Of a stretch of DNA of 64,000 nucleotides, positions 19,172 through 57,380 are shown one piece after another (within the stretch, counting starts at the first letter, position 1; each line of letters starts with the position of its first letter). The notes beneath the pieces were generated by a model. That model was not told the DNA's origin. It worked only from the letters and a program-made list of their open reading frames with translations, and did not search any database. The position numbers were made by a program, and so were the translations under genes. The DNA comes from Defluviitaleaceae bacterium (lineage in GTDB: Bacteria > Bacillota > Clostridia > Lachnospirales > WQUN01): NCBI GenBank assembly GCA_009779835.1, contig WRBD01000003.1, forward strand, positions 46,867-110,866, read 5' to 3'.

Positions 19172-19546
19172 ATGAAAATAAAAAATCTGTTATTGGTCGT
19201 TTTGGGCGTTGTTTCATTAATATTGGGTCTGGTAGGCATTATTTTGCCGGTATTGCCTACCACTCCCTTTGTTTTGCTATCAGCTGCTTGTTTTTCAACA
19301 AGCAACAAGAAACTCGACGATTGGCTACGTCGAAGCCGTATATTCGCCCCTTTCATTGAAAATTACCGCACAGGTCAAGGTATCAGCAGATTGCATAAAA
19401 TCGGCAGTATAACCTTTCTTTGGACAGGTTTGATTATTTCTATGTTAATCACGAGAACAACTTTTATTTTTGCCACTTTGAGTATAGTAGGGATAGGTGT
19501 CACCGTTCATCTTTTGATGATTAAAACGAAAAAAAAGGACGCTTAA
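19172..19546 (+). CDS. DUF454/YbaN family membrane protein
   Basis: GVVSLILGLVGIILPVLPTTPFVLLSAACFSTSNKKLDDWLRRSRIFAPFIENYR. Confidence 0.88.
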   Translation: MKIKNLLLVVLGVVSLILGLVGIILPVLPTTPFVLLSAACFSTSNKKLDDWLRRSRIFAPFIENYRTGQGISRLHKIGSITFLWTGLIISMLITRTTFIFATLSIVGIGVTVHLLMIKTKKKDA

Positions 19547-19571
19547 AAGTAAGCGTCAAGGACTAGATAAT

Positions 19572-19880
19572 GGTGACGACATTCACCTTCTTTTATTTTC
19601 AGTTTTTTGATTTTTTAAGTAAAGCCGGAGTCACGTGCCTCCGGCGGGTTGCCGCAACGCGCATAAAAGGTGCATGCTTAGGTAGCGAAGCCGAGCTGGT
19701 ACCGGAGCCCGGTGCGCTACCCCCTTATATTTGCGTACGGCGGGTAATACAGTTGCAACATTACTCAGAGGCTAAAGCGGAATCGGTGCGGTTCGTTTCA
19801 AGGCGCGAGGCCCCTTCCGAAGTTGGCAAAACCCGTACATGGCTTAAAACGTCTGTTTGATTGTTGCAAATACACAATAC
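19572..19880 (+). repeat. ~300-bp structured dispersed repeat, copy 1 (possible HEARO/omega-RNA-like ncRNA)
   Basis: Aligns along its length with the reverse complement of 57078-57380; shares e.g. GGTACCGGAGCCCGGTGCGCTACCCCCTT and TTGGCAAAACCCGTACAT. Confidence 0.85.
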
Positions 19881-19946
19881 CTCTTTACGTGTAATTCGTC
19901 AACACTTATTTTTCACAAATGTAAGTTCAAAGAATTTTCTTAGAAG

Positions 19947-56916: not shown

Positions 56917-57077
56917 CTATTTACCTCATTATATTATGTACTTTAACTTCGCGCCCTTTTATCACAATGTACCATATATGGCGCATTTCTTCAATCTCTA
57001 TTGCAAGGAAGACGCGGATTTGTTGCATAAACCGGATGAATAAACATGTATTGACAAGATACTCATTGCGTGATATC

Positions 57078-57380
57078 ATGGATTCGCAACAGTCGAACAG
57101 ACGTTTTATGCTATGTACGGGTTTTGCCAATTTCGGAAGGGGCTTCGCGCCCTGAAACGAACCGCACCGCTTCCGCTCTAACCTCTGCATTATGTTGCAA
57201 CTGCTTTACCCGCCGCACCACATAAAAGGGGGTAGCGCACCGGGCTCCGGTACCGGCTCGGCTTTGCTACCCACGCATGCACCTTTAATGTGCGTTGCGG
57301 CACCCGCCGGGGGCACGTGACCTCGGCTTTACTTAAAAATTAAAAACCGCAAATAAAAGTAGATGAATGCAACGACAAGC
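57078..57380 (-). repeat. ~300-bp structured dispersed repeat, copy 2 (inverted relative to copy 1)
   Basis: Reverse complement aligns with 19572-19880 over its length. Confidence 0.85.

Follow-up and report, generated by a model that had tools for sequence, protein, structure and literature searches.

The 64,000-nucleotide stretch of DNA analysed here (the window) contains two copies of a repeat. They align over their whole length once one of them is reverse-complemented, and thus are inverted copies of a single element. The alignment confirms the preliminary description, made from the sequence alone, of two inversely oriented segments that share long identical blocks. The same description had called the element GC-rich, and its GC fraction is indeed 0.54-0.55 versus 0.43 for the window. 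The repeat is larger than was described, because it extends through a conserved promoter located at 19874-19902 in copy 1 and at 57051-57079 in copy 2. Both copies are oriented toward convergent genes and run into them.

The source genome is a metagenome-assembled genome (MAG) from termite gut, of Defluviitaleaceae type, with 2.32 Mb in 58 contigs and approximately 80% completeness. Termite-gut genomes are the subject of a 589-MAG study (PMC7024585). The genome-wide nucleotide search that had been proposed earlier as a check was performed with BLAST, and it yielded 16 full-length copies in this genome (81-90% identity, with an E value of 1e-78 for the weakest) along with about five partial copies. 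This copy number is far beyond chance.

Boxes resembling TTGAC(A)-17-TATTAT head all 16 full-length copies of the genome in one orientation of the alignment, and are followed by about 245 conserved nucleotides. Many of these copies also carry a CACG-N3-CGTG dyad between the -35 and -10 boxes. This arrangement establishes a predicted sigma-70-type promoter that belongs to the RNA gene itself. Its conservation places transcription on the minus strand for copy 1 (19902-19624) and on the plus strand for copy 2 (57051-57327), and the features of both copies are listed in Table 1. The earlier proposal of a structured, dispersed, stand-alone RNA stands, now with support from covariation, but the reading was made on the wrong strand relative to the predicted transcript. 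Since the copy 1 transcript lies on the minus strand, what had been taken for a T-rich leader, TTTTTTAAGTAAAGCC, complements the 3' end of the RNA. On the plus strand, as originally read, the segment folds no better than shuffled sequences (z -0.32), whereas on the transcript strand z is -1.3 (copy 1) and -2.6 (a full-length copy called L015).

Table 1. Predicted features of the two repeat copies in the window.
Feature	Position	Strand	Basis
Copy 1 -35 box TTGACG	19897..19902	-	Promoter scan; box conserved in 16/16 copies of the genome
Copy 1 -10 box TATTGT, 17-nt spacer	19874..19879	-	Alignment and promoter scan
Copy 1 predicted RNA body	19624..19867	-	16-copy alignment; 5' end inferred about 7 nt past the -10 box, 3' side at terminal hairpin D
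Copy 1 5' domain, match to covariance model R1 (101 bits)	19776..19871	-	Model match; core covariation
Copy 1 palindrome B GGTACC, apical loop of hairpin 2	19698..19703	-	Palindrome extraction
Copy 1 palindrome C GCATGC, bulge 3' of hairpin 2	19672..19677	-	Palindrome extraction and covariation
Copy 1 palindrome D CACGTG, terminal hairpin loop	19632..19637	-	Palindrome extraction and folding
Copy 1 terminal hairpin D followed by TTTACTT, weak terminator-like end	19624..19645	-	Promoter/terminator scan
Strong intrinsic terminator downstream of copy 1, also closing convergent gene 19172-19546	19538..19557	-	Terminator scan
Copy 2 -35 box TTGACA	57051..57056	+	Promoter scan
Copy 2 -10 box TATCAT, 17-nt spacer	57074..57079	+	Promoter scan
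Copy 2 predicted RNA body	57086..57327	+	16-copy alignment and model match
Copy 2 5' domain, match to covariance model R1 (101 bits)	57082..57177	+	Model match
Copy 2 palindrome B GGTACC	57249..57254	+	Palindrome extraction
Copy 2 palindrome C GCATGC	57275..57280	+	Palindrome extraction
Copy 2 terminal hairpin D, loop palindrome CACGTG at 57314-57319	57306..57327	+	Palindrome extraction and scan
Copy 2 remnant of the ORF1 start, first ~13 codons	57361..57406	+	Alignment with full-length copy L015

Terminators are found within 400 nucleotides downstream of 21 of 59 copies, compared with 7-8 in upstream controls, indicating that a terminator of its own is not universal for the element. The upstream regions differ between genomes. 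The promoters of L122, L123, L118 and L119 (genomes G031 and G061) carry other inverted repeats, such as GTTCGGACATGTCAATATTAATATGCCCGAAC, and thus regulator sites seem to vary by genome. In G004, copies L091-L114 have a -35 region unlike that of the window's genome, and repeated GGAAAAATTCC-type units ending in GGAACGGTTC are located 5' of the promoter.

On comparative grounds, the repeat encodes a structured RNA that had not been described before, about 245 nucleotides in length and longer in some genomes. No Rfam family matches either strand of the repeat, including the models for ROOL, GOLLD and OLE RNAs. The conserved 5' domain is a hairpin inside a hairpin with a GAA/GAAA internal loop. 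Among 30 diverse sequences of its 14-pair core, 98.3% of the pairing cells hold standard pairs, and in 27 cells both partners have changed. The covariation score of the core is 0.336 versus no more than 0.126 for slid partners, and 0 of 500 shuffles reach it. One core helix varies among copies (UCCG/CGGA, UUCG/CGAA, UCAG/CUGA or CCCG/CGGG), and the inner core stem is capped interchangeably by UUCG, GAAA, GCAA or GCGA tetraloops. The first two helix variants are both present already among copies of the window's genome, which argues that solo copies evolved as RNA.

The 5' domain is followed by a variable linker rich in N-CACC units, whose length is 54-59 nucleotides in G000 and 73-150 nucleotides in G004. 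The 3' domain then comprises an outer stem, hairpin 2, a bulge and a terminal hairpin, in that order. Hairpin 2 has a covariation score of 0.466 versus 0.164 or less for slid partners, although in the window's genome it folds no better than shuffled sequences, and hairpin D does only modestly better. A covariation analysis had been suggested as a check at the outset, and its outcome, with core and hairpin 2 well above the slid-partner controls, demonstrates selection on the predicted RNA structure.

One copy does contain an open frame of 96 amino acids (19570-19860, plus strand), as might be expected if the repeat were a small protein-coding gene present many times. However, no frame on that strand is fully open in more than 2 of the 16 copies, in agreement with the preliminary remark that the copies do not share a reading frame. 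In addition, the stems covary, insertions and deletions fall in loops, and tetraloops are swapped. The absence of a kept frame across 16 copies together with stem covariation rules out a protein-coding repeat, whose probability we regard as negligible.

A second RNA type, seen in L117, L120, L212 and L222 (G061, G031 and G036), has the same 5' domain joined to another 3' half. The latter forms a CCTTGGTCAG...CTGACCAAGG stem around GATATGCGCATATC, followed by a strong terminator.

The 3' domain of the first type carries 6-nucleotide palindromes at three sites: the apical loop of hairpin 2 (B), the bulge (C) and the loop of the terminal hairpin (D). Site B, within a 10-nucleotide loop, is palindromic in 51 of 53 copies, although copies within a genome are kin and independent events are fewer than this and the following counts. 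The two copies scored without B (L094 and L219) are wrongly picked hairpins, and the palindrome is present in both. Among distinct B loops, 14 of 16 are palindromic versus 1.6 expected from shuffled loops. The B sequence is GGUACC in G000, CGGCCG in G004, GGAUCC in G034 and G021, and GAGCUC in G031 and G036, while single copies of G061 have GGAUCC, GAGCUC or GGGCCC. Site C is palindromic in 47 of 48 copies (12 of 13 distinct sequences versus 1.4 expected from shuffling), and includes GCAUGC, GCUAGC, GUGCAC, UCGCGA, GACGUC, GCGCGC, GGUACC, ACGCGU, UGUACA and UGCGCA. Site D is palindromic in 38 of 53 copies (12 of 26 distinct loops versus 2.4 expected from shuffling), with CACGUG, CCCGGG and UCCGGA among its sequences. 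In total, there are about five distinct palindromes at B, at least eight at C and at least four at D.

Within one genome, B and D are nearly uniform, whereas C varies among copies. The covariation score of C is 0.839 versus no more than 0.177 for slid partners, and its adjacent central bases are GC in 11 cases, AU in 8, CG in 4 and UA in 4. Folding of hairpin 2 from four genomes leaves the palindrome in an open loop, and CCCGGG in hairpin D of G004 can close into the stem instead of staying open. L015, the only full-length copy with genes in its genome, has the non-palindromic sequence GCTAAC at C. The alignments establish that B, C and D, as predicted RNA sites, keep their self-complementarity while their sequence changes between copies and between genomes. 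Because adjacent covarying bases cannot pair within one strand, this pattern argues for homotypic pairing between RNA molecules, and we infer that the molecules pair with one another. Thus, the RNA exhibits both conserved intramolecular stems and covarying symmetric loop contacts, two features that mark self-assembling ornate RNAs as a kind.

The covariance model R1, which represents the 5' domain and finds copies at an E value of 1e-28, has matches in 9 of the 38 genomes from the taxonomic family of the window's genome, in a patchy distribution (20, 50, 10, 6, 6, 5, 5, 5 and 3 matches). Three of ten genomes from the window's genus carry the RNA, its own included. A single weak additional match (E value of 4e-4) was obtained from 392 genomes of the order, and 391 genomes of the class gave none other than the window's genome. 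In sum, approximately 750 genomes of the order and class gave this model no reliable match outside the taxonomic family. When 85,462 species genomes were scanned with a sequence pattern, matches were found solely in Defluviitaleaceae bacterium MAGs, which we take from their record names to be termite-gut MAGs, and a scan of IMG/VR did not find the pattern.

This distribution also bears on the preliminary identification of the repeat as a HEARO RNA, the omega-RNA of IscB elements, or a TnpB counterpart. The length is similar, and both RNAs are structured and dispersed. The Rfam model for HEARO (RF02033), suggested as a check, does not match the repeat, though it performs well in related genomes: 5 of the 38 family genomes are positive (G023, G010, G012, G026 and G030), with 46 matches in G023, 10 in G010, and E values to 3e-34. 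The nine carrier genomes have none. TnpB-type proteins (PF07282) are encoded in 13 of the 38 genomes and in 0 of 9 carriers. Since RF02033 is blank in carriers but positive in relatives, which serve as a working positive control, the HEARO reading is rejected, and the two results together refute either type of omega-RNA, a reading that we now consider extremely improbable. The IscB profile (RRXRR, PF14239) had no match in the window's genome, nor in any control genome. As a separate observation, HEARO and TnpB are both absent wherever the new RNA occurs, and HEARO is abundant in some family genomes, G023 above all.

Copies from G000, G004 and G034 form one clade per genome, indicating amplification within lineages. 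A classic transposon or MITE was rejected as the vehicle: flank repeats indicative of target-site duplication were not above control in six copies, and the 3' ends are heterogeneous rather than fixed. A clean empty site for two G031 copies was sought in the sister species G036 and was not found, as the loci are rearranged. The flanks 5' of sister copies L004 and L005 (near 56990-57010 of the window) are alike (AGGAAGACGCGG.TTTGTTG.ATAAA), which suggests segmental duplication rather than transposition.

Palindromes are also features of DNA, and promoters hold inverted repeats as well. The element could thus serve as DNA, with the palindromes acting as sites for dimeric proteins or as part of a REP/MITE-like mobile repeat, and with an incidental transcript. 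Its dispersed, patchy and multicopy occurrence and its amplification within genomes would suit such a role. However, a dimeric-protein site would conserve sequence and not only symmetry, whereas the palindrome sequence at C varies even among copies of one genome. Moreover, the palindromes reside in RNA loops with covarying stems, and neither a target-site duplication signal nor a uniform 3' end supports a mobile repeat. We therefore consider a function at the DNA level quite unlikely.

The form of the element that includes genes points to its origin. A full-length unit consists of the promoter, the RNA, ORF1, a DUF2922 gene and a terminator. ORF1 encodes about 70 amino acids and has no Pfam match, the DUF2922 gene is intact (Pfam E value of 1e-9), and ribosome-binding sites are present. 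The RNA runs on into both genes in L015, L033 (G034), L118 (G061), L122 and L214 (G031) and several G004 copies, and a terminator-like hairpin follows the gene pair in L015 and L033. Overall, ORF1 and DUF2922 lie 3' of the RNA in G000, G004, G031, G034 and G061, and ORF1 does so in G021. Many solo copies of the window's genome are still followed by the first ~13 codons of ORF1. In L007 and four G034 copies, the RNA directly adjoins the terminal part of the DUF2922 unit, an arrangement that we read as internal deletion. Full-length units, remnants and deletions together suggest that the RNA by descent was probably the leader of an ORF1-DUF2922 operon, and that most copies later lost the genes.

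Carriers have extra DUF2922 matches, with 12 in G004, 8 in G034 and typically 2 elsewhere. The predicted DUF2922 protein has a beta-beta-alpha-beta arrangement (pLDDT 70). Foldseek gave no convincing fold relative (best E value of 0.2), and the PDB contains no sequence relative. The ORF1 model is unreliable (pLDDT 49). Our literature search on DUF2922, a widespread family of small proteins, found no information on its function. Flagellin-like genes adjoin two copies, downstream of L013 and upstream of L015.

Perhaps the RNA acts exclusively in cis, as an attenuator or riboswitch-like leader of ORF1-DUF2922, with solo copies as decaying leftovers. The full forms of at least five genomes place the RNA directly 5' of these genes with a ribosome-binding site, ORF1 remnants lie behind most solo copies, and hairpin D with its short T tract could be a conditional terminator. 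However, solo copies have kept the promoter, compensatory stem changes and palindromes after gene loss, loops kept self-complementary between molecules would serve no purpose in a leader, and both window copies point into convergent genes. We find this explanation unlikely.

Instead, we think it likely that the element is a multicopy structured-RNA gene with its own promoter, which arose as a leader, was amplified within single lineages and pairs homotypically through B, C and D. Through these sites, RNA molecules that are identical or related would make loop-loop contacts and create homodimers or larger assemblies, and differences at C could sort classes of copies. Most copies would have lost the genes and persisted as stand-alone RNA genes. 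The assembled RNA might be a scaffold or a sequestering or regulatory RNP, possibly with the ORF1 and DUF2922 proteins, and a trans-acting scaffold is our preferred guess. More tentatively, these RNAs may constitute a new family that amplifies in genomes and builds homotypic assemblies by means of as many as three palindromic contacts. Two of these would be common to nearly every copy in a genome and the third (C) would sort self-recognizing copy classes, and the RNA would have a variable CACC-rich linker and two small proteins as partners.

Protein-free assembly is known for only a few natural RNAs. If our proposal is correct, this would be a small, promoter-driven and very multicopy self-assembling RNA whose contacts have been rewritten repeatedly yet remain self-complementary. 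Because the predicted transcripts are short and the palindromes swap clearly, pairing between molecules lends itself to direct tests, and the association with DUF2922 offers a handle on a widespread protein family.

Kissing loops of the HIV-1 DIS type have an apical loop in which AA precedes and A follows a 6-nucleotide palindrome. The CAA-GAGCUC-A loop of G031 and G036 is similar, a likeness of the loop alone, as the host here is bacterial and the RNA non-retroviral. HEARO RNAs share a length of about 200-300 nucleotides, structure and dispersal, whereas RF02033 recognizes related genomes and not this repeat, and an RNA-guided nuclease was not found in carriers. As in DUF1659/DUF2922 small-protein operons, full-length elements have an intact DUF2922 gene after a small ORF1. 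Unlike canonical operons, the carriers hold extra, divergent copies with the RNA as leader; genomes with the canonical DUF2922 operon only lack the RNA according to R1.

The closest parallels are the structured bacterial noncoding RNAs OLE, ROOL and GOLLD, for which a cryo-EM study reported that adjacent-base covariation backs symmetric kissing loops between molecules (PMC12286853). The RNA described here shares a variable linker with ROOL and switching palindromes with OLE, whose L9.3 palindrome changes from GGCC to GAUC or AGCU (PMC12286853). It differs in having no Rfam match, a much shorter length (about 245-350 nucleotides) and an oligomer that is predicted here. It differs further in its 6-nucleotide palindromes at up to three sites, its 3-50 dispersed copies per genome, its own promoter and its tie to ORF1-DUF2922.
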